From IMG/VR virus record IMGVR_UViG_3300018476_000011, positions 1 through 34,519 of that record: DNA of 34,519 nucleotides; one strand, 5' to 3'. The notes under the pieces were generated by a model. It worked only from the letters and a program-made list of their open reading frames with translations. It was not told the origin of the DNA and did not search any database. Source of the stretch: a virus. Positions 1,758 through 34,519 of the stretch are shown here, one piece after another. The translations under genes and the position numbers were made by a program. The first letter of the stretch is position 1; each line of letters opens with the position of its first letter.

Positions 1758-2803
1758 TGTCCGACATATCCACCGAAGGCCCGCCCGCCAAACCCTACCG
1801 CGAGAACCCGCCGACGCATTTCAGGGAGGTGCACTGGAAGACCGGCACCACGACATGGCCGACGAAGCCGTTCTCGTATCTCCAAAGCGGCATGGCAAAA
1901 CTCGCTGAGAGTTTCACCGGCACGGCGTCATTCTGGCTACGCACCAACGACGTGCGCTGGACGATCACCGGCACATACGAACCGCATTTTAATGTCGTGT
2001 ATGTCCCTGGTCCGCGCTTCTATGCGACTTACGAGTATGAAGGTGCCGACCATAACACCTATTTGGGCAACGTGCCCGATTACGGATTCTATATCCGCAT
2101 CGCGCGCACCGAGGAGCCATTCATCGCAATACCCGGCTCGCTCTATTGCACCCTGTTCTGCGAGCGCGCCATCGGCGACATCACCAGCCGCTTTAGCTTT
2201 GCAAGCGATGCCTCGATCAGCGGGCCCGCATCCGTGCCGGGCGACATCGTAGACCACAAGTGGGCACACTTTCTGTTTACATGGGATCTTAATGCCGCCG
2301 GCGGCGGCAGGGGCACGCTGACGGTAAACAAGGTTGCGCGCACCGTGTACTACAACCGCGCCTCTTATGATTACAACGAGGAGGCGGCAGAACCCGTGGA
2401 CTTCATACCGCAGCCGGTGCCGTTGCGCGAGCCGGCGCGGTTCTTCGGAGCCGAAGGCATCTACACACTGCCGGGCGCAGTACCGACCATCGGCCCCGCA
2501 GTGCCGTTTCTCGACAATTGGTTCATCTCACTGGCGCATGTCTGGATCAGCACGACGCATGTGATCGACGACGTGAGCAAGTTTGTCAGCGAGGACGGCA
2601 CGCCGGCCAAGCTGGGCAAGGACGGCGCTGTCGTGTTCATTGACCCGGCGACCGGGAAAGTAACCGATGAGCACAAGCCCGATTATTATTTCCGCGGCGG
2701 GCCAAAGGAGTTTGTCCAGAACTTCGCGACGGCGGGCGGGGCGGTAAGTCTCCTCGGCGAGCTGCCGATTGCACAATCCATCAACCCGAAGATCGGCGCC
2801 TAA
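1757..2803 (+). CDS. Concanavalin/LamG-like tail protein (receptor binding)
   Basis: This 348-residue protein looks like a jellyroll lectin of the concanavalin A/laminin G fold used by phages as a tail accessory. Signs are the alternating beta-rich pattern, many aromatic residues, a central segment in which a surface-exposed DNW..SLAHVWI strand matches the conserved late strand of LamG folds, and a C-terminal tail ending in a Gly/Phe-rich stretch seen in related phage lectins. The probable role is binding host surface glycans. It begins at TAATG overlapping the previous stop. Four bases separate its stop from the fibre gene. Fold assignment is from pattern only; a different beta-sandwich adhesin is possible. 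Confidence 0.65.
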   Translation: MSDISTEGPPAKPYRENPPTHFREVHWKTGTTTWPTKPFSYLQSGMAKLAESFTGTASFWLRTNDVRWTITGTYEPHFNVVYVPGPRFYATYEYEGADHNTYLGNVPDYGFYIRIARTEEPFIAIPGSLYCTLFCERAIGDITSRFSFASDASISGPASVPGDIVDHKWAHFLFTWDLNAAGGGRGTLTVNKVARTVYYNRASYDYNEEAAEPVDFIPQPVPLREPARFFGAEGIYTLPGAVPTIGPAVPFLDNWFISLAHVWISTTHVIDDVSKFVSEDGTPAKLGKDGAVVFIDPATGKVTDEHKPDYYFRGGPKEFVQNFATAGGAVSLLGELPIAQSINPKIGA

Positions 2804-2807
2804 CGCG

Positions 2808-4673
2808 ATGACAATAGTTTACCGCACCGATGGCGCGTGGGGCACAGGCAAGGGCGCCAACCTCGCGCCCGACGAAGTCGACGGCAATTTCTACGACATC
2901 ACGACGCGGGTTGAGTTCATCGAAGACAACCCGGTCGAGCCGATCACGCCCATCGCGATAAATATCGAAGGCAGTGCCTTTACGATGGGGCTGTCGGACG
3001 GCTCGACGCTCGGCCCGATCATGATCACCTACCCGATGCCGACCTGGCGGGACCACTGGGCACCCGGCGTCAATTACAACGAGATGGACTTTTTCATCGC
3101 GCCCGATGGCGGCATGGGCGCGGTGATGATCGGACACACGTCGGGCGCCACCTTCGATTGGGGCGCGCTCGATCCGACGCTGGCGCTGCCGCTCTACCGG
3201 CAACTGATCGGCGGCTCGGGCACGACCAGCGGCATCGCCGATCTGGTTGACGTCGCGCTCGGCACACAAGCCGACAACGATATGCTGGTGTGGGACGCGC
3301 CAGCGAGCCTGTGGCGCAATGAAACGCCGGCCGCGGTTACGCTCAACCTGCCGGCTTTCAGCGGCTCCACGGGCTCGACGGCAGGCGCCAAGGGCGTCGT
3401 GCCGGCACCCGCGACCGGCGACAATGTAGCAGGAAAGTTTCTCTCGGCGGCGGGCGGCTGGGCGGTGCCGGCAGCGGGCGGCGGCGGCAGCACCAGCCTC
3501 GCCGGGCTGGCCGACGTAGCGATCTCGTCGCCGGTCGATCTGAGCCTGCTGCAATATCGCTCGTCGGACGGCAAGTGGCACAACGCCACGCTGGCGGCGC
3601 TCGGCTCGGGCACCGTCACAAGCGTGGACACGGGCAGCGGGCTGGCGGGCGGGCCGATCACCACGACCGGCATTCTCAGCCTGGCGCCGATCCCGACGCT
3701 GAACCTTCTTGCCAACACGACCGGCGGCGCTGGAGTGCCGGCAGGCGTAACGCTCTCGGTCTTGCTCGACGCCGCCATCGGCTCGGCTCGGGGCTCGGTA
3801 TTGCGGCGCGGCGCCAGCGGCTGGAGCGTGCTGACGCCGGGCACGGCCGGGACTTATCTCAAGAGCGGCGGCTCGGGCGCTGACCTGTCGTGGGATGCGC
3901 CGGCCGGCTCGGGCACGGTTACGAGCATTGCCACGACCGGCGGCATAACCGGCGGGCCGATCACCGGCAGCGGCACGGTGAGCCTGGAGCAGATAGCGAC
4001 CAGCCGGGTGCTCGCCAACATCAGCGGCGCAACGGCGGCACCGACCGCAATCAGCACGGCGCTGCTGCTCGACAATGCGCTCGGCACGACGCAGGGCTCG
4101 GTGCTCTACCGCAGCGCAACCGCCTGGGTGGCATTGCCTCCTGGCACTGCGGGGCAAGTGCTGGCAAGCGGCGGCGCGGCGGCCAATCCGTCATGGTCGG
4201 CGGGCGGCGCCGGCTCGGGCGATGTCGTCGGCCCAGCAAGCGCCGTCAGTGGCAACCTCGCGACCTTCTCAGGCACCAGCGGCAAGATAATCGCCGATGG
4301 CGGCGCATCGGTTGCGGACCTAAAGCGCGAGGCGATACAGGTGGCCGTCTCCGACGAGACGACGAACCTGACGACCGGCACCGCGAAGCTTACGTTTCGC
4401 ATGCCGTTTGCCATGACCCTGACGGCGGTGCGCTCCAGCCTCTCGACGGTATCGTCGTCGGGGCTGGTCACGGTGGACATCAAGGAAAGCGGCACAACGA
4501 TCCTCTCGACGGCGCTCTCCATCGACGCTAGCGAGAAGACCAGCGTGACGGCGGCAACCGCTGCGGTGATCTCGGATGCGTCGCTGGCCGACGACGCCGA
4601 GATGACAATCGACATCACCGCGGCGGGCACCGGGGCGCGAGGGTTGAAGGTGTCGTTGATCGGCACCCGATGA
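2808..4673 (+). CDS. Tail fibre protein with tandem ~101-residue repeats
   Basis: The 621-residue fibre begins at ATG 2808; an upstream in-frame ATG at 2769 lies inside the previous gene and is unlikely. The N-terminal 130 residues resemble the conserved attachment region of phage fibres (YRTDGAWG..KG..L...EVD.NF). A segment with LADV and LVWDAPASLW follows, typical of fibre shaft modules. Two Gly/Thr/Ser-rich repeats of about 101 residues each open with GSGTVTS. A GDVVGPASAV module leads into a C-terminal beta-rich tip of about 100 residues. No chaperone or peptidase motif is seen. It probably forms a trimeric receptor-binding fibre. Its stop overlaps the next gene as ATGA. Confidence 0.85.
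   Translation: MTIVYRTDGAWGTGKGANLAPDEVDGNFYDITTRVEFIEDNPVEPITPIAINIEGSAFTMGLSDGSTLGPIMITYPMPTWRDHWAPGVNYNEMDFFIAPDGGMGAVMIGHTSGATFDWGALDPTLALPLYRQLIGGSGTTSGIADLVDVALGTQADNDMLVWDAPASLWRNETPAAVTLNLPAFSGSTGSTAGAKGVVPAPATGDNVAGKFLSAAGGWAVPAAGGGGSTSLAGLADVAISSPVDLSLLQYRSSDGKWHNATLAALGSGTVTSVDTGSGLAGGPITTTGILSLAPIPTLNLLANTTGGAGVPAGVTLSVLLDAAIGSARGSVLRRGASGWSVLTPGTAGTYLKSGGSGADLSWDAPAGSGTVTSIATTGGITGGPITGSGTVSLEQIATSRVLANISGATAAPTAISTALLLDNALGTTQGSVLYRSATAWVALPPGTAGQVLASGGAAANPSWSAGGAGSGDVVGPASAVSGNLATFSGTSGKIIADGGASVADLKREAIQVAVSDETTNLTTGTAKLTFRMPFAMTLTAVRSSLSTVSSSGLVTVDIKESGTTILSTALSIDASEKTSVTAATAAVISDASLADDAEMTIDITAAGTGARGLKVSLIGTR
3603..4211 (+). repeat. Two tandem ~303-bp coding repeats in the fibre gene
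   Basis: Copies start at 3603 and 3906, each with GGCTCGGGCAC, and a third, divergent unit begins at 4212 with GGCTCGGGCGATG. The copies keep motifs such as GGPIT, LLANTTG/VLANISG, GSVL.R and PGTAG, but the DNA has diverged. This is an old internal duplication that lengthens the fibre shaft. Confidence 0.8.
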
Positions 4674-5374
4674 ACCTGATCAACCCGTTCTGGTATGCCG
4701 CGGCGGGACCGACCGACCCTAACTTTGCCAACGTCGTCTTGCTCTGCCATTTCGACGGCACGAACGGCTCGACGACGTTCATCGATAGCTCCAGCGTTGC
4801 CCGCAGCGTGACGGCGACGGGCAGCATCAGCCTGACGACGGCGCAGCAGAAATTCGGCACCGCATCGCTCGACGCGGGCGCGGCCAACAGCTATGCCGGT
4901 GCTCCCTTTAGTACAGATTGGAACTTCGGCGCCGGGCAATTCACGGTCGAAGCGTGGATCAGGCCGACAGCGACGATCAGCGGCTTCCGTGGCGTGGTCG
5001 CGCAGTGGGGCGCGGCGCCGAATCAAGGCTGGTATCTCGGGTTCAACGCCACCACGGTCGCCTGGATATACAGCACTACTGGCACCGCCTTCACGCAACT
5101 TACCGCGACGTTCTCCCCAACCCTTAATGCCTGGATGCATCTTGCGGTCGACCGTGATGCCGGCGGCATTCTGCGCGTCTACACCGATGGCACGCAGCGG
5201 ATATTAGCGTCGCCGCCAGCCATTTTTAATAGCACTCTCGGGCTGTACATCGGCAACGACGGGCTACTGACTCACAACTTTGTCGGACAGATAGACGAGG
5301 TGCGGATCACCAAGGGCGTGGCCCGGTATGGCGGTGCGTTTACGCCGCCGGCCGCGCCGTTCCCCGACGCGTGA
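4670..5374 (+). CDS. LamG/concanavalin-like lectin tail protein
   Basis: This 234-residue protein is a clear LamG-like (ConA-like) domain. After a short N-terminal tail it has LLCHFDG near residue 24, F.VEAWIRP near 92, a WYLGF strand, W.HLAVDRD..G.LRVYTDG and a final IDEVRITKGVARY. These are the classical strands of this fold in phage tail proteins. It probably binds host glycans. It starts at ATGA, overlapping the fibre gene, and its own stop overlaps the next start, so the two recognition proteins are coupled. No catalytic residues typical of glycanases can be picked out. Confidence 0.85.
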   Translation: MNLINPFWYAAAGPTDPNFANVVLLCHFDGTNGSTTFIDSSSVARSVTATGSISLTTAQQKFGTASLDAGAANSYAGAPFSTDWNFGAGQFTVEAWIRPTATISGFRGVVAQWGAAPNQGWYLGFNATTVAWIYSTTGTAFTQLTATFSPTLNAWMHLAVDRDAGGILRVYTDGTQRILASPPAIFNSTLGLYIGNDGLLTHNFVGQIDEVRITKGVARYGGAFTPPAAPFPDA

Positions 5375-5713: not shown

Positions 5714-5911
5714 ATGATCACGTTCCTGATCTACCTGCTCGTCGTCGTTATCATCATGGCGCTCGGCTGGTACGTCATCACGCAGATCCCGCTGCCCGAG
5801 CCCATCAGCAATATCGTGCGCGTCGTGTTCGTCGTGGTCTGCGCGCTGATCATCATCCTGATGCTGCTCGGGCTCGTGGGGTATGTGCCGGCGCCGTATC
5901 CGCTGCGCTAG
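5714..5911 (+). CDS. 65-aa two-span membrane protein, candidate holin
   Basis: Start ATG 5714 is preceded by GGTGGAG at good spacing. The protein is almost wholly hydrophobic, with two predicted helices (about residues 2-22 and 34-57) joined by a short IPLPEPISN turn, and a short basic end. The pattern resembles small two-span proteins of the Thivi_2564 type. By size, topology and place at the end of the late operon it is the best holin candidate in the genome, but no endolysin is recognised nearby. Its TAG stop shares the CTAG at 5908-5911 with the stop of the convergent minus-strand gene. Confidence 0.7.
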   Translation: MITFLIYLLVVVIIMALGWYVITQIPLPEPISNIVRVVFVVVCALIIILMLLGLVGYVPAPYPLR

Positions 5912-6360
5912 CGCGGGCTAGTTGCGGGCGCGGCCCCAACAGGCATCGTCACCGATGAGCCTGCCGGCAAGTCGGACAAGTTCGTCGGATGTTCGTGGGC
6001 CTCTGACCAAGTCTCCGATTTGCTGGCGCGCATCACCCGCACGGTTTTCGGCCCCGTTATCACGACGGTTTGGCTCAGCGCCACGCGGCCGTCGGCATCA
6101 ACGGCATAAAGTGTCGTTTTGCCTGCTGTCTTTCCAAACACAAAAATCAAATCCTTGCTGCCCTGTTCGGGTACTTGAACATTCGCGATATCAGGGTTGG
6201 CGATAAACACGCTCGTCAATGGCCGCGGTGACTGAACCAGCGTCCCTGAGTTGATCGAAAGGACAACCGCCGGCCCGCTTGGGCGGATTTCGTCAGCCGC
6301 CAGCGCCGGGACGGCGAGCGCGACGAGCAGCGCGGCGCTTGTTAGAATGCGATAAGCCAT
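5908..6360 (-). CDS. Exported CpaC/secretin N-terminal-domain protein (pilus formation N domain)
   Basis: This 150-residue protein starts at ATG 6360 with AGGT upstream. Residues 1-21 are a Sec signal peptide ending VPALA-ADE. The rest matches the N-terminal domain of Tad/Flp pilus secretins (CpaC/RcpA; Pilus formation N-terminal family). Landmarks are L.INSGT, then TSVFIANPDIANVQV, FVFGKTAGKTTLYAVDADGRV and a closing VVIT strand. In the family this domain sits at the periplasmic base of the outer-membrane secretin ring; here the secretin pore domain is absent and a Ser/Pro tail of about 40 residues follows. A free domain could compete with host CpaC and block Tad pili (receptor removal), though this is a hypothesis. 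A shared CTAG stop marks the end against the convergent late operon; 131 bp without a gene lie upstream. Confidence 0.8.
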   Translation of the reverse strand: MAYRILTSAALLVALAVPALAADEIRPSGPAVVLSINSGTLVQSPRPLTSVFIANPDIANVQVPEQGSKDLIFVFGKTAGKTTLYAVDADGRVALSQTVVITGPKTVRVMRASKSETWSEAHEHPTNLSDLPAGSSVTMPVGAAPATSPR

Positions 6361-12211: not shown

Positions 12212-12970
12212 ATGAAGGCATATCTGGCATTGTTGGCGGGCGCGTCGGCGCTCGCCTTGGCGAATCCGGCTCACGCTGTGCTGCAGTTCTCCGCCGATAT
12301 CGGCGGCACTCTGATCCAGTGCGTCGATCAGACTGCGTGCGACAGCAACCTCGCGATCGGCACGATCACGACGGTCGTGCCCACAGTGGTACCCAACGGC
12401 GGTGGGACTGTAACGTTTCTGGGATCGGCGCAGACCCAGACGGTGGGCAGCAACAACACGTTGACGACGACCAGTTTCCAAATCGAGAACACTGGTCCTG
12501 CAATCGACGTGACTATCGCGGTGGGAGGCACCGACTTCGTCGGTCCAGTCACTTCCATCTCTAATAGCGGCAGCGGCACATGGACCAATGCCGGTGGTTC
12601 TACGATCACGCTGCAGTTCTACGCCGACACTGCCAACGGCCAGGGTGGCGAGAGCCCGACCGACACTCCGGGCACTCAGCTCGCCAATAGCGGCGTGCTA
12701 AACGCTGTCGGGCCAGCCGACTCGATCAACTACAACTCTGGTCTGGTGCCATTTGCCGATGCCAACGCGTACAGTATGACGCTGTTCACCACCGGCACGA
12801 TCATCGCCGGCAGCACGGCGACGCCATCGCAACTCACCGGCCGCAGCCAGACCATGGTGGCGGTCAACGAGGTGCCGGAGCCGGCCAGTCTGTTGATCCT
12901 CGGCGGATCGCTGCTCAGCATGGGGTGGTTCCTGTGGCGGCGGCGCGAAGCGGGAGAGGCTGCTGCCTAG
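12212..12970 (+). CDS. Secreted PEP-CTERM surface protein
   Basis: ATG 12212 has GGGAGG just upstream. The 252-residue product has a signal peptide (residues 1-22, LALLAGASALALANPAHA), a Thr/Gly/Asn-rich beta body with CVDQTAC and at the end the PEP-CTERM signal: VPEPASL, a hydrophobic helix LILGGSLLSMGWFLW and RRRE. In bacteria such proteins are handled by exosortase and end at the cell surface, usually in exopolysaccharide-producing strains. The phage has no exosortase, so it must rely on the host. The gene has its own SD and no overlap with the flanking exonuclease and RecT genes, unlike the rest of the operon, so it looks like an inserted moron. An inverted GTCGAC pair lies at 12179-12198 upstream. 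Confidence 0.85.
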   Translation: MKAYLALLAGASALALANPAHAVLQFSADIGGTLIQCVDQTACDSNLAIGTITTVVPTVVPNGGGTVTFLGSAQTQTVGSNNTLTTTSFQIENTGPAIDVTIAVGGTDFVGPVTSISNSGSGTWTNAGGSTITLQFYADTANGQGGESPTDTPGTQLANSGVLNAVGPADSINYNSGLVPFADANAYSMTLFTTGTIIAGSTATPSQLTGRSQTMVAVNEVPEPASLLILGGSLLSMGWFLWRRREAGEAAA

Positions 12971-19004: not shown

Positions 19005-19423
19005 ACCAATCCGGCCGCAAGTCATCAATCGCATTGGTGACACCCCGGCCTCTCAATGTCATCGAGCGACCCCGACCTCCGCGTGACTTGAGCGATGAGG
19101 AGCTTGAGGTATGGCACAGCATTGTTGGGCAGGAGCTAGCTGATTGGTTCACCAATGCGACGCTACCCTTGCTGTCACAGTATTGTCGGCATGTCATACA
19201 TGCTAAGCGTGTAGCTGAACTGATCGAGCACACGATTAGCACATCCGACACCATGCCCTGGATGGAGGAGTATGATAGCCTGCTAAAGATACAAGAGCGT
19301 GAGACAAGGGCTATGGTGCTGCTTGCTACAACCATGAGGTTGTCGCAGCAATCGAGCAGACATGACAAATCCCGCAAGACAGAAACGCTCAACAAACGCT
19401 TACCGCACACCATCACGGGCTGA
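19001..19423 (+). CDS. Terminase small subunit (P27-like)
   Basis: The 140-residue protein overlaps the HNH gene by ATGA. It reads ERPRPPRDLSDEELEVWHSIVGQELADWFTNATLPLLSQYCRHVIHAKRVAELIE and MPWMEEYDSLLKIQERETRAMVLLATTMRLSQQS, a P27-type small terminase layout: N-terminal arm, helical DNA-binding domain and oligomerising helices. It recognises the packaging site. It overlaps the large subunit by 62 bases, in another frame. Confidence 0.8.
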   Translation: MNQSGRKSSIALVTPRPLNVIERPRPPRDLSDEELEVWHSIVGQELADWFTNATLPLLSQYCRHVIHAKRVAELIEHTISTSDTMPWMEEYDSLLKIQERETRAMVLLATTMRLSQQSSRHDKSRKTETLNKRLPHTITG

Positions 19424-20924
19424 TCGTGCGATAGCGTGGATCGAGACATGCTGCCGGGTGCCGAGCGGGCGCGCGGATATGGTGGGGCGGCATGTTGTAT
19501 TAAGGGAATGGCAGCGCGACGCTATACGGGCGATATACGACAATCCGTATGGTACACGCCGAGCCATAATAAGCTTTGGCAGAAAGAACGGTAAAACAGC
19601 ACTGTCTGCTTTTCTGACACTACTTCACCTCTGCGGCCCGGAAGCTAAAGCAAATTCGCGTATGTACAGCGCTGCGCAATCGCGGGATCAAGCGGGGCTG
19701 TTGTTCGATTTGGCGTCGCAGTGTGTCCGGCTATCGCCCGACCTGAACGATTCTGTAGTAATCAGGCAAACCGCGAAGGAAATAGCTTATCCTGAGCTTG
19801 GCACGTTCTACAAAGCGCTGTCAGCCGAAGCGACAACCGCATTCGGGCTTAACCCATGTTTGATAATTCACGATGAACTCGGACAGGTGCGCGGGCCGCG
19901 CAGCACATTGTATGAAGCGCTTGAGACAGCAACCGGCGCGCAGGACGACCCGCTGAGTATTGTTATTAGCACGCAGGCACCTACGGATGCGGACTTGCTG
20001 AGCGTGCTGATCGATGACGCAAAGGCCGGGCACGATCCGCGGGTAATCGTGCGGTTGTACACGGCGCCTGAAACGCTGGACCCGTTCAGCGAGGAAGCAA
20101 TCAAGCTGGCCAACCCGGCATTCGGGGATTTCCTGAATGCGACGGAAGTTCTGGCGATGGCGGAAGATGCCCGCCGCATGCCGAGCCGGGAAGGCGAATT
20201 CAGAAACCTCGTCTTGAACCAGCGGGTGGATACAAATAATCCATTCGTATCTGCAAGCGTGTGGAGTAACTGCGGTGCGCCGCCGAAGCCGATTGACGGC
20301 GTTCCGGTATATGCCGGGCTGGACCTGTCGAGCGTGGCGGACCTGACGGCGCTGGTGCTGATCGGCGAGGTGGATGGTGCGTGGCAGGTGCACCCGACAT
20401 TCTGGCTGCCGGGTGTGGGGCTGAGCACGAAGGCAAGGGCGGATCGGGTGCCGTATGACCAGTGGCACAAAGAGGGGTATCTACAAACCGCGCCGGGCAA
20501 GAGTGTGGAATATGAGTTTGTGGCTGAATACCTGCGCGATGTGTTTCAGCGGTACGATGTGCGCAAGCTCGGCTTCGATCGGTGGAACTGGAAGCACTTG
20601 AAGCCGTGGCTGACGCGGGCCGGGTTCAGCGACGACATCCTCGAAAGCCGGTTCGTGGAGTTCGGCCAAGGTGTCGCATCCATGTCGCCGGCACTGCGCG
20701 AGCTTGAGAGTGATTTGCTGAACCGGAAGATTGCGCACGGCATGCACCCAGTGCTGAGCATGTGTGCGGCAGGTGCGGTCGTGTGGAGCGATGCGGCGGG
20801 CAATCGGAAGCTGCACAAGGCGCTGTCGAGCAGCCGCATTGACGGGATGGTGGCGTTGCAGATGGCGCGTGGTGTGGTGCCGGAAGCCGACGCCGAGATC
20901 GACATCATGGGAATGGTGGCTTGA
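19362..20924 (+). CDS. terL: Terminase large subunit
   Basis: The 520-residue protein starts at ATG 19362 inside the small-subunit gene. The N-terminal ATPase has REWQRDAIRAIY, Walker A-like SFGRKNGKTAL (near residue 70) and Walker B LIIHDELGQ (near 168), then VISTQAPT. The C-terminal nuclease has GLDLSSVADLTAL with the first Asp (near 318), FDRWNWK and a last conserved SSRIDGMVALQMA. This is Terminase_1/HK97-like, so cos or pac processing with ATP-driven filling of heads is expected. No intein or frameshift is present. GC is lower in the first third than in the last. Confidence 0.95.
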   Translation: MTNPARQKRSTNAYRTPSRADRAIAWIETCCRVPSGRADMVGRHVVLREWQRDAIRAIYDNPYGTRRAIISFGRKNGKTALSAFLTLLHLCGPEAKANSRMYSAAQSRDQAGLLFDLASQCVRLSPDLNDSVVIRQTAKEIAYPELGTFYKALSAEATTAFGLNPCLIIHDELGQVRGPRSTLYEALETATGAQDDPLSIVISTQAPTDADLLSVLIDDAKAGHDPRVIVRLYTAPETLDPFSEEAIKLANPAFGDFLNATEVLAMAEDARRMPSREGEFRNLVLNQRVDTNNPFVSASVWSNCGAPPKPIDGVPVYAGLDLSSVADLTALVLIGEVDGAWQVHPTFWLPGVGLSTKARADRVPYDQWHKEGYLQTAPGKSVEYEFVAEYLRDVFQRYDVRKLGFDRWNWKHLKPWLTRAGFSDDILESRFVEFGQGVASMSPALRELESDLLNRKIAHGMHPVLSMCAAGAVVWSDAAGNRKLHKALSSSRIDGMVALQMARGVVPEADAEIDIMGMVA

Positions 20925-21266: not shown

Positions 21267-23180
21267 ATGCTTAAACGGACCAGGGCCGGCAGCAAGGTAG
21301 CCGGGGCGCTCTCCTATGTGCTCTCGGACGCCACGGCTGACCGTTATGGCGACATCATCGAGCCGGGCGGGTGGCTGCTCGATAACTTCCGCAGCAATCC
21401 GATAGCGCTGTTCAACCACAGCCCGAACCAGCCGATTGGCCGCTGGCGCAACATCCGCGTCGAGGACGAGCGGCTGGTGGCGGATTTCGAGCCGGCGGCG
21501 AAGGGCACCAGCCAGCGCACCGACGAGATCGTCTCGCTCATCGAGCAGGACATCCTGCGGGCGACGAGCGTCGGATTTCTCGGCGTCGAGTCGGAGCCGA
21601 TCGACCCGAAGCGGCCGAGCGCCGGCAAGCGCTACACCCGGCAAGAGCTGCTCGAAACCAGCATCGTGTCCATACCCGCCAACCCGGCGGCACTGCAACT
21701 CGCGAGATCCCTCGGGATCTCGGACGACACCCTAACCCTTGCCTTCGGCACGCCTGCCGCAACCGGGCGAGGGACGGTGACACCCGGCACGCCTGCCGCA
21801 CCGAGGCCCCAATCGAGGGCAACCCACATGGATAATCAACCGACCATCAGTCAGCAGATCGAGGACCGGCAGAGCCGGCTTAACGCCGCAAGAGACAAGC
21901 TTTTTGAGATTACCCACGATCCCGAACACGATCTTGATGTGGCGACCGGTCTCAACGCCGAGATTGCGGAGCAGGAGCGGCGTCTGGTGTCGCTGCGCGC
22001 CACCGAGCAGTCGCTGGCATTGCGCGCGGTGCGGCAAGAGATTCTGCCGCCGGTATCGGCGCCGCATATCAACCGCCGGCCGCTCGGATTGCCGAGTAAA
22101 GAGCGCTCTCCCGGCGACCTCTATGCCAACCACTGCGTGGCGCGGTTTGTGGCCTTTTGCAAAGGCATGCCGGTCGAGCAGGTGCTGGCCGAGCGTTATC
22201 CCGACGACGAGCACACTGCGGTTGTCACTCGCGCGGCGATAGCGGGAGCGACCACGACGACGGCCGGATGGGCCTTGGAGCTGGTGCAGGTTGGGCAGGC
22301 CGAGTTCGTCAACAGCCTGATGCCCAATCAGGTGTTCCCGAAACTCGCGGCGATGGGCACGTCGCTGACCTTCGGGCCGAACTCCGGGGCAATCAAAATC
22401 CCGAGCCGGGCGGCCACACCGAGCATCGGTGGATCGTTCGTGGCGGAGGCGGCGCCGATCCCGGTGCGGCGTCTCGGCACGACCAGCATAACGCTCTACC
22501 CGCACAAGGTCGGCGGCATCAGCGTCTTTTCGCGGGAGATCGCTGCCTACAGCAACCCCGACATCGAGTCGCTGATCCGCAGCGCCATCGTCGACGACAC
22601 GCAGATCAACATCGATGCGCTGTTGCTCGATGCGGTGGCGGTATCGACCACCCGGCCGGCGGGGCTGACGAACGGCGTGTCCACGCTGACGGCGACTGCG
22701 GGCGGCGGCTATGCGGCGTTCCTCGGTGATCTGAACAAATTGACCGCACCGTTCTATGCGGCGAATGCCGGCCGCAACCTGGCGCTGCTGATGAACCCGG
22801 CGCAGCGCAACCAGTTGATGTTCGCACCGGGGCCGGCAGGGGCGCCATTCGGCTGGAGCACGCAGTTCACCGACATGTTCAGCGTGATCGCCAGCACCTC
22901 GGTGACGGCGGGTGCGGTGTACATGATCGATGCCGCTGACTTTGTGAGCGTGACCGGGGCGCCCGAGTTCGACGTGTCGGAGGTGGCGACAATCCACATG
23001 GAGGACACCACGCCGTTGAATATTGCGAGTGGCGCGCAGGGCTCGGGCGTTCTGGCGACACCGACGCAAAGCATGTTTCAGACCGCGCAAATCGCCATTC
23101 GGATGCTGGCGAATGTGAATTGGGCGATGCGGCGCACCGGCATGGTGCAGTTCATCGGCAGCGGCGTGAACTGGGGCTGA
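21267..23180 (+). CDS. Fused prohead protease and HK97-like major capsid protein
   Basis: The 637-residue protein joins two usual genes. Residues 1-160 are a HK97/U35 prohead protease: TADRYGDIIEPGGW, NPIALFNHSPNQPIGRW (catalytic His), DILRATSVGFL (Ser) and ELLETSIVSIPANPAALQLA. A Pro/Thr/Gly-rich linker (about 165-187) has a duplicated GTPAA element. A scaffold-like helical delta region follows (about 188-260) and then the HK97 fold capsid (from about 285: SPGDLYANHCVARF, ATTTTAGWALEL, GGSFVAEAAPIPVRR, KVGGISVFSREI). An internal ATG at 21828 with GAGGG upstream could give capsid alone. The gene ends in a strong terminator. Confidence 0.9.
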   Translation: MLKRTRAGSKVAGALSYVLSDATADRYGDIIEPGGWLLDNFRSNPIALFNHSPNQPIGRWRNIRVEDERLVADFEPAAKGTSQRTDEIVSLIEQDILRATSVGFLGVESEPIDPKRPSAGKRYTRQELLETSIVSIPANPAALQLARSLGISDDTLTLAFGTPAATGRGTVTPGTPAAPRPQSRATHMDNQPTISQQIEDRQSRLNAARDKLFEITHDPEHDLDVATGLNAEIAEQERRLVSLRATEQSLALRAVRQEILPPVSAPHINRRPLGLPSKERSPGDLYANHCVARFVAFCKGMPVEQVLAERYPDDEHTAVVTRAAIAGATTTTAGWALELVQVGQAEFVNSLMPNQVFPKLAAMGTSLTFGPNSGAIKIPSRAATPSIGGSFVAEAAPIPVRRLGTTSITLYPHKVGGISVFSREIAAYSNPDIESLIRSAIVDDTQINIDALLLDAVAVSTTRPAGLTNGVSTLTATAGGGYAAFLGDLNKLTAPFYAANAGRNLALLMNPAQRNQLMFAPGPAGAPFGWSTQFTDMFSVIASTSVTAGAVYMIDAADFVSVTGAPEFDVSEVATIHMEDTTPLNIASGAQGSGVLATPTQSMFQTAQIAIRMLANVNWAMRRTGMVQFIGSGVNWG

Positions 23181-23231: not shown

Positions 23232-23549
23232 ATGGAAAGTAATCAGCCGGAACGCCCGGTGACGCGGCAACCGCGCGCGGAGGCGACCAAGGAGGAACCG
23301 ATGGCAACGACGACGACGACAACCACTCCCGCAACACCGGAGGATCGGCTAAAGGCGGAGAAAGACGCCAAGGAGCAGACCGACAAGGAGATTGCCGAGC
23401 GGCTGACCACGCCGCCGCCGCAACCGACGCCGACGCAGGCTGAGGCCGACGCCATCAAGTCGGGCGAGGCGCCGCCGCCGGAAGCGCGGCAGGAACGCGA
23501 CGTAAAGCCGACGCCGACCGGCTCTGGCGCGGGATACACCACTCGATGA
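23232..23549 (+). CDS. Disordered Thr/Pro/Glu-rich protein, 105 aa
   Basis: ATG 23232 follows GGAGG. The protein has ATTTTTTTPATPEDRLKAE, a charged helix (AEKDAKEQTDKEIAERL) and Pro-rich ends. It has no hydrophobic core and looks disordered, like some head-associated or assembly proteins. Location right after capsid suggests a head role. It is the first gene after the terminator and it overlaps the next gene as ATGA. Confidence 0.65.
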   Translation: MESNQPERPVTRQPRAEATKEEPMATTTTTTTPATPEDRLKAEKDAKEQTDKEIAERLTTPPPQPTPTQAEADAIKSGEAPPPEARQERDVKPTPTGSGAGYTTR

Positions 23550-23902
23550 AACGCCTTGCCGGCGCTGCCGCGGCACTACTGCTGGCGGCGGCGCCGGCAT
23601 GTGCCCAACAGGCATTCCGCTGGGACGGCGCCGCCACCGTCACGCTGTCAGCCACGGCCACGACCAGCCGGGCGCAGGTTCAGACCGCGGAGGGCGGCAG
23701 CCAGGCGGTGCGTGTCTACAATGCCGGTACGGTGCCGGTGTTCGTCGCCTGCGGCACGGTCATCGTGGTAGCCACGGTTGCCGCCGGCTTGCCGATTGCG
23801 CCGGGCAGCGTCGAGGTGCTCGGCTGCAACCAGACGCACATTGCCGGCATCACCAGCACCGGCACCGCAACGGTTTACCTGACGGCGGGCACCGGACTCT
23901 GA
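23546..23902 (+). CDS. Exported small beta protein, 118 aa
   Basis: The start overlaps the previous stop. Residues 1-20 are a Sec signal peptide (MKRLAGAAAALLLAAAPACA-QQ). The mature part, about 98 residues, is beta-rich (ATVTLSATATTSRAQVQ, QAVRVYNAGTVPVFVACG, LPIAPGSVEVLGC, HIAGITSTGTATVYLTAGTG). This body resembles small phage structural proteins that follow the capsid in other phages, there usually without a signal peptide as I recall. Two Cys (about 69 and 94) could pair in the periplasm. It may be an exported decoration-like or adhesin protein. Confidence 0.7.
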   Translation: MKRLAGAAAALLLAAAPACAQQAFRWDGAATVTLSATATTSRAQVQTAEGGSQAVRVYNAGTVPVFVACGTVIVVATVAAGLPIAPGSVEVLGCNQTHIAGITSTGTATVYLTAGTGL

Positions 23903-24780
23903 TGCGCTTCATGCTGCCGCTACTGGCCGCCGGGCTGCTGCTGGCGCCGCCGGCCGAAGCGCGGATGCACGCGCCCTATCGCGCCCACCGCATCGTGCCG
24001 GCGACGGCGCCATTGGACGGGTTCACCCAGCCGGCGGCGGCGTACAGCATGCGCCGGCTGAGGAGCACCTATAGCGGCCCGGCGATTCGTCTGCGGCGGA
24101 CATTGGACACCGTCGAGGCGGATATCGCCTTTCTCGGTTTCACCGGCTTTACCGGCGCGCCCATCGACACGGCAGCGGCGGCAGCGCATTGCACGACACC
24201 CTGCACGGTAGCGGTTTGGTACGACCAGAGCGGCAACGCCAAGCACATGAGCCAAACGACGGTGGCTTTGCAGCCGGCGTATCAGGCCAACTGCCAGGGC
24301 ACCTTGCCGTGCGCGCGGTCCACGTCGGCGACGCAGCAGTTGATCAACAATGCGGTGGTGTGGGCGAGCCCGCTGACGATGAACGCGGTGGGACGGCAGG
24401 CGGTACGGCCGACGCCGGGGAGCTTTCAGTCCTGCTACTTCGTCGGGGCTGCCAGCAATCAGATGTTTCAGTATGCTGATGGCGATCAGTTGTATCTGAC
24501 GGATGGTACGCTGAACATCATCGCCCCGGCCGCCGGGTTGGCGTGGCATGCGGCCACCGGGATTTTGACCGGCAGTGCCGCCAGCCTTCTGCAGGTCGAT
24601 GCTAACGCGCCGGCGACGGGTATCGTTCTGACGCCCGGCACCCCGGGCAATGTTTACACTTACAACGCGCTAGCCGAGACCTGCGATTACGCCGAGATTG
24701 TGGTGTGGAGCGCTTATGCGCTGTCCCCGGCCGAGCGAACGGCGTTGCATGCCAACCAGAAATCGTTCTGGGGCTTCTGA
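23902..24780 (+). CDS. Exported AbfB/ConA-like carbohydrate-binding protein
   Basis: The 292-residue protein begins MRFMLPLLAAGLLLAPPAEA, a signal peptide. The mature part has AAYSMRRLRSTYSGPAIRLRRTLDT, then VAVWYDQSGNAKHMSQ, which matches the N-terminal domain of GH54 alpha-L-arabinofuranosidase B (ConA-like fold). It ends with ETCDYAEIVVWSAYALSPAERTALHANQKSFWGF, also seen in LamG proteins of phages. Catalytic competence is uncertain; the family catalytic Glu is not evident, and it is more likely a lectin. Six Cys (CTTPC, CQGTLPC, SCY, ETC) fit an oxidised, secreted state. TGATG overlaps join it to both neighbours. Confidence 0.75.
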   Translation: MRFMLPLLAAGLLLAPPAEARMHAPYRAHRIVPATAPLDGFTQPAAAYSMRRLRSTYSGPAIRLRRTLDTVEADIAFLGFTGFTGAPIDTAAAAAHCTTPCTVAVWYDQSGNAKHMSQTTVALQPAYQANCQGTLPCARSTSATQQLINNAVVWASPLTMNAVGRQAVRPTPGSFQSCYFVGAASNQMFQYADGDQLYLTDGTLNIIAPAAGLAWHAATGILTGSAASLLQVDANAPATGIVLTPGTPGNVYTYNALAETCDYAEIVVWSAYALSPAERTALHANQKSFWGF

Positions 24781-26282
24781 TGCGCTGGCTGCCTCTCGCT
24801 CTGGCTGGGTTGCTGGCAACCCCGGCGGCGGCCGATATGTATCAGGACGGCAGCAACGCGAGTCAGCCGCAGGCGGCAAACAACCTCGGCAAGATTGCCG
24901 GGAACCACTACGCGCCGGCTTACGGTTCCTGCACTTGGGACGCGACCCACGATGTTGGCCCGTGCGTCAACGCGGCCCTGGCGGCGGCAGCGACGGCTGG
25001 TGGTGGCCAGGTCGGCTTGCCGGCCGGCACCTTTGGCTTATCGACCAAAATCACCTGGCCTCAGACTGGCGCGGTGCGCCTGACGTGCCCGGCCGGCGGC
25101 GGCAGCTTGGCCCCGGCGACGACGTTAAAGTGGATCGGCAGCGCATCGGGCCGGATGGTGGAGCTGAAGCCGACGAGCGGCCACATCTCGGCGCCGTGGA
25201 TCGAGGGGTGCGGATTTGACGGCAATGGCGGGCTGGCGGCGGACGGGATACACGCGGCGAGCGTGTATGGCGGCCGGTTCAGCAGTCTGACCTTTAAGGG
25301 CGGCTTTAACGGCGGCCAGGTATTTGCGCTGACGGTGGACGACGCGGCGGGCGAGGACGCGCAGAACAACACGGTCGATAATCTTTATATCGACAGCCAG
25401 GGTTTCGCCTCGACCAGCACGCAGCTTTACCTCGGGGCTTACATGAACCCGGCGGATGCGTCCGGTGCGAATGCCAGCTTCAACTACCTGCGCAACGTCA
25501 GCATCGTTAACAACAGCGGCGGCACTGGCGCCGGCGTGATCTGCGATGGCTGCGACAACAACTATTTCAGTGGTCGGATTTACGCCACGACGAGCGTGGA
25601 TCTGAAGATCAAGACGGCGGGCGCCGCGACCGGGGCGTTTGTGTTCGGCGCCAACGGCAATGTGTTTTCGCCGGTGTATTACAGTGGTGCGTTTATCGCC
25701 CGTGGCACCCCGACGGTGGCGGCTTGCGTGCCTAACCAGACCTGCACGCGGGCCAATACGTTGTCGATCGACACGACGAACTCGACGCCGCTCCCGACCA
25801 TCGAGGCGGGTGCCGATCTACTGTGGAGCGGTAATAGCGGCTTCCATTACGGCGGCATGCTGATCGGTGACGCGGCCCGGCCGGCGTTGGTGGCGGCGAG
25901 CACGGGTATTCTCAACGGCTGCCGTGATGCGGCGGCCGGTTCGTCTGCGACGCAATATCTCTGCAACTCCGGCGGCACGCCGCTCTTGGCTTACAACTCG
26001 CTTGGCGGCGACCGATTTACCCAGCGTCTGGCGGGCACTGCCGGGGCGGCCAATCTGGTGTTCGAGCGGCCCGCCGGCACCGGCCTTTACGAGTTTGCCG
26101 GTGCGCCGGTAAAGCTACAGATATCGACGGTGGCGGCCTTGCCGGCGTGTAACTCAGCCAGGGCACATTCGGTGGCCAGCGTGTACGACGCGGCGGCGCC
26201 GACCTGGCGCGGTGCCTTGACCGGCGGCGGCGCGCTGGCGGTGCTGGCGTATTGCAATGGCACGAGCTGGGAAGCGCATTAA
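24780..26282 (+). CDS. Exported pectate-lyase-like beta-helix protein
   Basis: The 500-residue protein begins MRWLPLALAGLLATPAAA-D, a signal peptide; the longer frame from 24705 is rejected. Then GNHYAPAYGSCTWDATHDVGPCVNAALAAAATAGGGQVGLPAGTF is the start of a Pectate_lyase_3-type right-handed beta-helix, whose rungs (IEGCGFDGNGG, GGRFSSLTFKGG, NYLRNVSIVNN, CDGCDNNYFSG) run to about residue 270. The C-terminal 200 residues are beta-rich with several Cys and end as a fibre-like cap. It resembles a tailspike but has a signal peptide and many Cys. It may degrade or bind host polysaccharide at the cell surface. Confidence 0.75.
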   Translation: MRWLPLALAGLLATPAAADMYQDGSNASQPQAANNLGKIAGNHYAPAYGSCTWDATHDVGPCVNAALAAAATAGGGQVGLPAGTFGLSTKITWPQTGAVRLTCPAGGGSLAPATTLKWIGSASGRMVELKPTSGHISAPWIEGCGFDGNGGLAADGIHAASVYGGRFSSLTFKGGFNGGQVFALTVDDAAGEDAQNNTVDNLYIDSQGFASTSTQLYLGAYMNPADASGANASFNYLRNVSIVNNSGGTGAGVICDGCDNNYFSGRIYATTSVDLKIKTAGAATGAFVFGANGNVFSPVYYSGAFIARGTPTVAACVPNQTCTRANTLSIDTTNSTPLPTIEAGADLLWSGNSGFHYGGMLIGDAARPALVAASTGILNGCRDAAAGSSATQYLCNSGGTPLLAYNSLGGDRFTQRLAGTAGAANLVFERPAGTGLYEFAGAPVKLQISTVAALPACNSARAHSVASVYDAAAPTWRGALTGGGALAVLAYCNGTSWEAH

Positions 26283-27658
26283 TGCCCAGCTGGCTCACCC
26301 GCGCGCTCGGTTGGGGTGGCGCGACGGCGGCACCGGAAGGTGCGGTGCGGCCGGGACCATACATGCTGTCGAACGGTTGGCTCCCCGCCGGATCACCGTG
26401 GAATTACTGGCAAAGCGGGCAGAACGTGCAGCCCTACGGTTCGCGCTCGGCGATGCTGGAAGCCTGCATTTCGGCCTATGCGCAGACCGTGCCGATGTGT
26501 GCGGGCGATCACTGGCGGCGCCTCGACAACGGCGGCCGGGAGCGGGTGACGAACTCGGCGCTGTCGCGCATCATGCGGCGCCCGAACGATTACCAAAGCA
26601 TTTCCGATTTCCTGTTGAACCTGACACGCCGGCTGTACGAGTGCGGCAACGCCTATGCCGTTGCTGTGAGGAACGACCGGGCGGAAATATCCGAACTGCA
26701 CCTGATGCGAACCGGCGCGGCGACCGTTGCCGAGGACGGCAGCATCTTCTATGCGCTCTCGGGCAACGAGATCATCGAGCGGCGGCTGGATCTGTCGCAG
26801 GGCGTGCCGGCGCGCGAAGTGCTGCACGTTCGCTTACACACGCCGCGGCACCCTCTGAAGGGCGAGTCGCCGATCCTGGCGGCGCAGGTTGACCTGGCTA
26901 TGTCGGGCGCGGCGCTGAACCAACAGGTGCAATTCTACATCAACCAAAGCCGCCCGAGCTTCCTCTTGACCACCGATGTCGTGATGAAGCGGGAGCAGGC
27001 GCAGGAACTGCGCGCCTGGTGGAACGAGCAATCGCAGAGCGAGAACGTCGGCGGCACACCGATCCTGACGAGCGGGCTCAAGGCGCAGCCGGTGCAGACC
27101 TCGGCCGTCGATTCACAGTTGGTCGAGTCGCTCAAGATGAACGACCAGAACATTGCGCTGGCGCTGCGGATACCGCTGCAAATGCTCGGCATCGGCACGA
27201 GCACGTTCGCCAGCACCGAGTTGCTTATGCAGCAGTGGGTGGCGACCGGGCTCGGCTTCACGCTGAACCATATCGAGGAAGCCTTCGGGCTGCTGTTCCG
27301 GCTGCGCGGCGTGCCTGACGAGTATCTGGAACTGGACACCCGCGCTCTGCTGCGCAGCGCTTACCGCGAGCGCATCGAGGGGCTGGCGCGCGGCGTCATC
27401 AGCGGCATCTATTCGCCCGACGAGGCGCGGGCGCAGGAAGACCTGCCGGCGGTGCCGGGCGGGCACGGCGCCGAGCCGCGTGTTCAAATGCAGGTCGTTC
27501 CCCTCTCCTACGGCAGCGACATGCAGCCGCCCGACCCGCAAGCGGCATTGCCGGCGCCGGCCGAGCCGCCGCCACCGGACACCCCACCAGATGACACTGC
27601 CAGCAAACTCGCTGCGTTCCGCGCTGCGTATGACACAAGCCGTCGTGCTGCCGCCTGA
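26282..27658 (+). CDS. Portal protein (HK97 family)
   Basis: ATG 26282 overlaps the stop of the beta-helix gene (TAATG). The 458-residue protein shows portal landmarks: NVQPYGSRSAMLEACISAYAQTVP, RIMRRPNDYQSISDFLLNLTRRLYECGNAYAVAVRND, EVLHVRL..PRHPLKGESPILAA, LRAWWNEQS..NVGGTPILTSGLK, NIALALRIPLQMLGIGTSTFASTE, and the C-terminal RSAYRERIEGLARGVISGIYSPDEARAQEDLP. It forms the dodecameric DNA gate. A Pro-rich tail of about 60 residues ends it. It comes after the capsid gene instead of before it. Confidence 0.95.
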   Translation: MPSWLTRALGWGGATAAPEGAVRPGPYMLSNGWLPAGSPWNYWQSGQNVQPYGSRSAMLEACISAYAQTVPMCAGDHWRRLDNGGRERVTNSALSRIMRRPNDYQSISDFLLNLTRRLYECGNAYAVAVRNDRAEISELHLMRTGAATVAEDGSIFYALSGNEIIERRLDLSQGVPAREVLHVRLHTPRHPLKGESPILAAQVDLAMSGAALNQQVQFYINQSRPSFLLTTDVVMKREQAQELRAWWNEQSQSENVGGTPILTSGLKAQPVQTSAVDSQLVESLKMNDQNIALALRIPLQMLGIGTSTFASTELLMQQWVATGLGFTLNHIEEAFGLLFRLRGVPDEYLELDTRALLRSAYRERIEGLARGVISGIYSPDEARAQEDLPAVPGGHGAEPRVQMQVVPLSYGSDMQPPDPQAALPAPAEPPPPDTPPDDTASKLAAFRAAYDTSRRAAA

Positions 27659-28253
27659 CCCGCTGGCGGCCGAGCTTGGCTCGGTCGTCGGGGCACTGGA
27701 GCGTGAGCTGCGGTTGCAAATGACGGCTATGCTGGCCGAGGCGCGCGAGGAGATCGCGACGTTGAGAGCATGGCGCGCCGAGGCGGCGTTGCAGTTGGCG
27801 ACGCTGGTCGGGCCGCCTGGCCCGACCGGCGAGCGCGGGGAGAGGGGCGAGCCCGGCGAGGCTATCGCTGGCCCGGCCGGCGAACAGGGCATTCCAGGGC
27901 CGCCAGGCGAGCGCGGCGCCGATGGGCGCACACCGGCAATCCGGGGCGCCTGGAAGGCCGCTGAGGCATATGAAGCGCTGGACGTGGTGATGTGCGACGG
28001 CAGCTCATTTATCGCACTCTGCGACGCTCCAGGGGCATGCCCTGGCGACGATTGGCAGATACTCGCGCGCCGAGGCAAATCCGGGCCTCCCGGCCCGAGC
28101 GGCCCGATGGGGGAGAGAGGCTGGCCCGGCCCGCCGGGGCCATCGCCTGGCTCGCTTGACGTTGACGGCGAGGGGCTGTTGACGCTGCGGCTCGGCGACG
28201 GCAGCGCGATAAGCTGCGACCTGTACCCGGTGCTGGCGAAGCTCGTGCGATGA
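27630..28253 (+). CDS. Collagen-like fibre with carbohydrate-binding-type module
   Basis: ATG 27630 (or 27591) lies in the end of the portal gene; neither has a good SD. The roughly 207-residue protein has a coiled coil (LGSVVGALERELRLQMTAML, residues 16-55) and Gly-X-Y collagen repeats near 60-100 (GPPGPTGERGERGEPGE, GIPGPPGERGADG) and 149-172. Between them is IRGAWKAAEAYEALDVVMCDGSSFIAL with CPGDDWQILARRGKSG, a chitin-binding-type (CBM5/12-like) module found between collagen repeats in other alphaproteobacterial phages. A small beta cap ends it. It probably forms a trimeric head or neck fibre that sticks to glycans. Confidence 0.85.
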   Translation: MTQAVVLPPDPLAAELGSVVGALERELRLQMTAMLAEAREEIATLRAWRAEAALQLATLVGPPGPTGERGERGEPGEAIAGPAGEQGIPGPPGERGADGRTPAIRGAWKAAEAYEALDVVMCDGSSFIALCDAPGACPGDDWQILARRGKSGPPGPSGPMGERGWPGPPGPSPGSLDVDGEGLLTLRLGDGSAISCDLYPVLAKLVR

Positions 28254-33757: not shown

Positions 33758-34519
33758 ATGCCAGGGCCACATTATTTTGCCTGGGCCGACGAAGGCGAAC
33801 CGTTCGACCCGCTGGTGCACAACCGCGAAGACGAGGCGATCACCTCGCTGAGCATCAGCCAGAGCGAGGGCGATTTTGCCGGGCTCAACATAACGGTCGT
33901 CAACCCGTGGTCGGGGCTGCTGGAGCCGACCCGGCAGCTCTGGTGCTGGCTATCGTGGGATGACGGCACCGAGATCATCCCGCTGTTCTACGGGCGCATC
34001 GCCGCGGTTCCCGAGAGTATCGACGGCGAGACGGTGCGGCTGCTGTTCGCCGCCCGGCCGCTCGGCTTCGACGCGATGAAGGCGGACTACGCCGAAACGC
34101 TCAAAGTGTTGCCCTACTACGACCCGGTGTGGATCTCGGGCGATCTCGCCGACCCCGACGCCGTGCTGACCGGCTACGGCACGCGCTGGCACATCGACCG
34201 CTGCACGCACGAGCTGTCGCACAGTGACGAGCTGGTCGGCGAGGACGGCACGCTGACCATCGGCGAGGCCGACCACCTCTACGACGATTTCAGCGCATCG
34301 TATGGCGAGCCGCCGCTGGCGCGAGTCAACATCGAGGCCAGCCTCGGCTGGACGCAGGGCGGCACCGGCACCATCGACATGACCTGGCGCATCCAGAGCA
34401 TCTTCGACCAGCACAAGAACATCTACGCGCGCGGGCCGCACGGCATCACCGGCAAGTCGGGCTCGGGCGTCATCTCGTCCTTAACCGGCAACGGGCTGAT
34501 GGAGGATTGGCCGAAGCCG
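33758..34519 (+). CDS. Tail-tip / hub protein, N-terminal part (continues at 1)
   Basis: ATG 33758 opens the gene and the frame is still open at the window end; it continues in phase at base 124 (or base 1 after removing the overlap). This part reads PHYFAWADEGEPFDPLVHNREDEAITSLSISQSEGDF, then LFYGRIAAVPESIDGETVRLLFAARP and SASYGEPPLARVNIEASLGWTQGGTG. It is an all-beta N-terminal domain like those that attach to the tail distal ring. The full protein is about 632 residues. Confidence 0.8.
   Translation, partial: MPGPHYFAWADEGEPFDPLVHNREDEAITSLSISQSEGDFAGLNITVVNPWSGLLEPTRQLWCWLSWDDGTEIIPLFYGRIAAVPESIDGETVRLLFAARPLGFDAMKADYAETLKVLPYYDPVWISGDLADPDAVLTGYGTRWHIDRCTHELSHSDELVGEDGTLTIGEADHLYDDFSASYGEPPLARVNIEASLGWTQGGTGTIDMTWRIQSIFDQHKNIYARGPHGITGKSGSGVISSLTGNGLMEDWPKP
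34397..34519. repeat. Right copy of 123-bp terminal overlap
   Basis: Exact copy of bases 1-123. See the left copy: both lie inside the tail-tip reading frame, so only one is present in the closed molecule. Confidence 0.95.

Follow-up and report, generated by a model that had tools for sequence, protein, structure and literature searches.

Predicted exported, cysteine-rich spike- and lectin-like proteins encoded by a putative mobile cassette in the head-gene operon of a soil phage

Introduction

Tailspikes and depolymerases are regarded as virion parts that are made in the cytoplasm. The tailspike depolymerases (HK620, Sf6, Fri1 gp49, phi29 gp12) combine a right-handed β-helix with a modular build, the N-terminus being constant and the body exchanged. 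One product of the three-gene phage cassette described here (p1, p2 and p3), namely p3, has the same traits, yet departs from these enzymes by a signal peptide, an even number of cysteines, the lack of a recognisable virion anchor, a site in the head operon and its accessory nature. TspA of RcGTA, a detachable biofilm-degrading tailspike, is like the cassette in that a spike enzyme is suggested to act on the EPS around producer and recipients (PMC13420450); TspA is baseplate-associated, however, and its description makes no mention of a signal peptide, the periplasm, secretion or disulfides. A preprint of 2026 on TspA states that soluble depolymerases of the biofilm matrix are not known to be encoded by phages; the present cassette is a candidate.

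Host export is used by Lys44 of fOg44 (a secreted endolysin), by SAR endolysins and by spanins (reviewed in PMC6116005), as it would be by the cassette; these proteins have lysis functions, whereas the cassette encodes putative glycan-active spike and lectin modules. Lysogenic-conversion morons are, like the cassette, accessory and horizontally moved, but the cassette is fused into the late operon through overlapping genes and a transcription unit of its own is not evident.

Results and Discussion

The window, that is, the whole stretch of DNA analysed, is 34,519 bases long and constitutes one IMG/VR virus record. It carries a 123-base terminal direct repeat (1-123 and 34397-34519), and a tail gene reads through the junction of this repeat, so that the genome is very probably complete. 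The gene order comprises the terminase large subunit (19362-20924), a fusion of prohead protease and major capsid protein (21267-23180 (+); PF04586 and PF05065; major head protein phrog_617, E=3e-66), p0, p1, p2, p3, the portal (26282-27658 (+); PF04860, E=1e-63), a collagen-like fibre, connectors and the tape measure. The left border of the insertion is p0 (23232-23549 (+)), a charged 105-residue protein without signal peptide that is retained in siblings lacking the cassette, and the right border is the portal, whose true start is likely the ATG at 26282 within TAATG. Directly 3' of the portal, and overlapping its end, lies the collagen-like fibre gene (27480-28253 (+)), the sequence of which is highly variable among siblings. 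The nearest cellular leads for the window are Acetobacteraceae. In one Acetobacterales-order genome, a capsid relative (full-length) and a relative of the portal lie with too little space between them for the cassette, so that an Acetobacterales host is unproven, and the host can be bounded near this order only loosely.

The initial annotation had described three consecutive, overlapping genes between capsid and portal, and both the coordinates and the overlaps hold. Gene p1 (23546-23902 (+)) encodes a signal peptide (codons 1-20) and a small jelly-roll with 2 mature cysteines, p2 (23902-24780 (+)) a signal peptide (codons 1-20) and a GH54/concanavalin-like domain with 6, and p3 (24780-26282 (+)) a signal peptide (codons 1-18), a variable β-helix body and a C-terminal Cys-pair domain, with 12 mature cysteines in all. 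The start of p1 lies in an ATGA over the p0 stop, those of p2 and p3 in TGATG, and start and stop codons overlap throughout from p0 to the portal, where a promoter of the cassette's own would have no room. Late expression is thus expected, and the cassette should be read together with the head genes. This arrangement bears on one of three roles proposed at the outset, lysogenic conversion, in which p1-p3 would coat or modify the lysogen. Export, accessory status and a moron-like distribution agree with such a role; the genes have no separate transcription unit, however, and lysogens normally keep late head operons silent, which makes lysogen coating very unlikely and the weakest of the three proposals. 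Action on capsule or EPS around lysis fits best.

Signal peptides were called with a crude n/h/AXA rule, under which 0.5% of random internal starts are positive and, in seven phage genomes, 6.8% of all genes, cassette included. In the window, p1 begins with MKRLAGAAAALLLAAAPACA (predicted cut before QQAF), p2 with MRFMLPLLAAGLLLAPPAEA (before RMHA) and p3 with MRWLPLALAGLLATPAAA (before DMYQ); in each, a charged n-region is followed by a hydrophobic stretch and an AXA site rich in Ala. All 52 relatives with readable starts obtained from IMG/VR scans (20 p1, 21 p2 and 11 p3, window included) bear a signal, and 50 of them have Ala at position −1 of the inferred cut. The signal peptides noted earlier are thus borne out, and the search for homologues with and without signals refutes, for the close family, the counter-proposal that these proteins are invariably cytosolic. 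Mean identity within the p1 family is 32% in the signal region versus 61% in the mature part, which argues that the signal property is selected and not its letters. With conserved n-, h- and c-regions and an AXA-type site, p1-p3 are predicted to be exported (Sec) proteins, and the homologues lend strong support to the earlier view that tailspike-like and lectin-like proteins are exported here. Chance hydrophobic starts are ruled out by the 0.5% background rate together with conservation in relatives. The predictor being crude, one might suppose that the N-termini reflect misassigned starts or hydrophobic segments of virion proteins and are no export signals at all; against this stand the retention of signal features and the −1 Ala across three families while the p1 signal diverges, the parity of the cysteines, and the fact that alternative starts would delete the conserved mature N-terminus, so that we give this reading hardly any credence. 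Tat-like RRxFL/RRxxx starts were seen by eye in p2 homologues from loci L012 and L083 and in a WbsX-like neighbour of the cassette in L077 and L084, and NCBIfam returned no Tat-signal or other informative match for the exported cassette proteins.

The cysteine motifs named in the initial annotation (CTTPC, CQGTLPC, CDGC and ACVPNQTC) are all present. The number of mature cysteines is even in 52/52 family members, amounting to always 2 in p1, normally 6 per domain in p2, and 6 to 12 in p3. The p1 relatives in L012 and L088 have each lost one cysteine and gained another nearby. By comparison, p1 homologues without signal (Acetobacterales prophages and two viral contigs) have no cysteine in 14 of 15 cases. 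A Cys pair before WYDQSG, equivalent to the FC..TTC of exported fungal AbfB, is found in 20/20 cassette p2 domains versus about 1 of 56 non-exported phage homologues (Fisher 2e-17, a value that, like the other cysteine counts, ignores kinship). Cysteines that are paired in the exported versions and, for p1 and p2, absent from relatives without signal suggest that the folding of p1-p3 involves disulfides formed in an oxidising compartment.

The p1 body, described earlier as small, β-rich and decoration-like, was modelled with confidence (pLDDT 92) as a small β-sandwich, and its structure matches phage proteins that are likewise small (about 95-110 residues) and uncharacterised, with E down to 5e-8 and TM up to 0.87. 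As would be expected of a head decoration-like protein, relatives are encoded directly behind the capsid gene: cytosolic p1 relatives are flanked by the major capsid gene and the connector in 13/13 readable Acetobacterales loci, seven reverse-strand loci being left out. Compared with these cytosolic relatives, encoded next to the capsid gene, p1 appears to be the version of the family that bears a signal and cysteines. Searches of p1 against PHROG and Pfam gave no significant match, and full-length p1 homologues were not found in isolated phages. An Ena-type disulfide-linked pilin was considered for p1 and rejected, the match (Foldseek E 7e-3, Z 6.7-8.1) being tied with PirA and near the level of unrelated folds.

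The AbfB-like character assigned to p2 is confirmed by a PF09206 match over the first third of the protein (ArabFuran-catal; E=1.7e-8, 34.4 bits versus a cut-off of 25), which ends at profile position 98 of 315, and by a match to AkAbfB chains in the PDB (E=4e-12, residues 15-90 of 482 only). With the GH54 α-L-arabinofuranosidase B (AkAbfB, 1WD3), p2 has in common the N-terminal part of the catalytic β-sandwich and the FC..TTC pair; the similarity is limited to the beginning of the GH54 domain (about 75-90 residues), however, and the remaining catalytic domain is not recognised. In some relatives the p2 domain is duplicated or triplicated, and distant p2 domains occur in Gordonia, Arthrobacter and Aphanizomenon phages. 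Most likely, p2 is a lectin-like domain and putative glycan binder.

The third protein had been taken for a pectate-lyase-like spike, of which a β-helix of tailspike/epimerase type stands, the p3 model being confident in its first half only (mean pLDDT 57.5). The predicted helix spans residues about 18-355 of the mature protein and matches the Fri1 depolymerase spike (Z 24.1), alginate epimerases (Z 23-24) and RbmB lyase (Z 21.4), with Z 21-24 over ~260-280 residues for the HK620, Sf6 and Fri1 tailspikes. Full-length p3 homologues were not found in isolated phages. The predicted mature N-terminus of p3 is a constant tag, DMYQDGSNA (24834-24860 (+)), and a constant-motif search returned 29 distinct DMYQD proteins of 313-931 residues, all of which, unlike cytoplasmic tailspikes, have a signal peptide (one called by eye). 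The p3 bodies are swapped behind this constant "signal peptide + DMYQD-SNA" tag. The cysteine number of the DMYQD proteins is even in 29/29 (range 4-16) with very different bodies, and this diversity is sufficient for cysteine parity alone to be telling. The C-terminal domain of p3 (26115-26279 (+), PAC...GALTGGG...YCNGTSWEAH) recurs in Burkholderia phage Bm1 (PP183292), within a 1001-residue protein with signal peptide and ten cysteines (WVR18150.1), and on signal-bearing proteins from Acetobacterales-order and other genomes, several of which, as judged by eye, adjoin phage genes.

Sixty sibling loci with both capsid and portal visible, including a few near-duplicates, were then compared: 10 have p1 (most of these with p2/p3 as well), 4 have another exported, four-Cys protein at this position and 46 have neither, and the cassette is thus, as a moron would be, present or absent among close siblings. 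In loci L189 and L188 the 2.77-kb cassette is 93% identical in DNA and sits on opposite sides of the capsid gene, following it in one locus and preceding it in the other; capsid and portal DNA of the two can be aligned only in pieces, at 65-76%. The cassette also occurs in phages with unrelated terminase and portal, and in the podovirus-like phages of L077 and L084, on contigs G001 and G003 and with a different type of portal, it lies upstream of the terminase. The order p1-p2-p3 is constant: of 25 contigs with a DMYQD protein, p2 lies directly upstream in 23 and p1 is present in 20; as p1-p2 precede varied DMYQD proteins, p1 and p2 would form a constant base and p3 the variable part. We take the three genes to be a putative mobile accessory cassette inside the head-gene operon of a soil phage.

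Since most siblings are without the cassette, p1-p3 are not obligatory virion parts and the cassette is dispensable. A signal-bearing protein could nevertheless be a virion part, in that exported spikes might complete their maturation in the periplasm and attach to heads or tails once lysis has brought the two compartments together. The position next to the capsid gene, the non-exported p1 relatives directly behind capsid genes, and the tailspike-like p3, whose bodies are exchanged behind an unchanging N-terminus, are consistent with docking. However, the cassette is accessory in siblings and also found upstream of the terminase in podovirus-like phages, the phage has its own signal-free fibre and lectin candidates (27480-28253, 2769-4673 and 4670-5374), and a known anchor domain was looked for in the cassette proteins and not found. 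We consider virion docking, another of the three roles proposed at the outset, rather unlikely.

The explanation that we favour is that the cassette probably constitutes a late glycan-active module, exported and disulfide-folded outside the cytoplasm, whose site of action is the host surface or EPS at about the time of lysis. Export of p1-p3 would proceed through Sec (some homologues have Tat-like RRxFL signals), followed by cleavage by signal peptidase I and folding with disulfides in the periplasm, for which the cytoplasm gives no opportunity. In this scheme, p2 would provide a glycan-binding domain and p3 a depolymerase/lyase-type or glycan-binding β-helix, with the constant p3 tag docking the variable spike to a constant partner, either p1/p2 or the virion. 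Targets are most likely polysaccharides on the surface or in the matrix of the infected cell, of its debris and of its neighbours around lysis, the outcome being that progeny would be neither trapped nor lost (release and receptor clearance). Once in the periplasm, p1-p3 would still depend on lysis, or on some further step, for access to the surface. More tentatively, and with appreciable doubt, these spike and lectin modules may derive from virion proteins, be exported and oxidised in the periplasm and meet particles or matrix only at lysis, as a swappable system of constant p1-p2 base and tagged variable p3 common to unrelated siphovirus- and podovirus-like phages. An exported class that recurs, has disulfides and shares an N-terminal tag would mean that some phages use secreted glycan-active factors or two-compartment virion building. 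Such a class bears on phage escape from, and entry into, exopolysaccharide in soil and rhizosphere communities, and the DMYQD-SNA tag offers a hook for finding many more exported spike-like proteins.

Glycan-active folds and late expression also agree with superinfection exclusion, the exported proteins binding or trimming the receptor glycan on the producer and on debris. Two other genes of this phage encode a PEP-CTERM surface protein and an exported N-domain of a pilus secretin (PF13629), so that envelope remodelling appears as a theme. Receptor masking or removal overlaps in mechanism with action on surface or EPS around lysis, and we hold it to be a real possibility that falls short of probable. 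The secretin-type protein (5908-6360 (-), 150 residues) consists of only the N-terminal domain of a CpaC-type pilus secretin (E=2e-16) and could poison pilus assembly as a form of superinfection exclusion. The PEP-CTERM protein (12212-12970 (+); PF07589, TIGR02595) has a signal peptide and represents an exosortase-sorted surface protein in a phage; its relative in G001 is close (96% over 208 residues) and that in G003 diverged. It was considered as a cassette part and rejected, the scan having found one other phage and inspection by eye a diverged relative in a third.

Further signal-bearing genes were observed at several of the loci. After the cassette, L077 (8078-10682) and L084 (7340-11152) have more of them, encoding a WbsX/GH99-like protein with the Tat-like start and a ~390-residue protein ending in a Cys motif, and in L077 these exported genes lie directly before the terminase. 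A different exported four-Cys protein (QKxCDQVRTN...YLCGYMIVR...) takes the capsid-portal slot in L144 (4703-5104), L147 (6299-6712) and L159 (2796-3212). Finally, in the Acetobacterales-order genome of L243 (7489-11370), at least four consecutive signal-bearing, Cys-containing genes are located near apparent tail genes.
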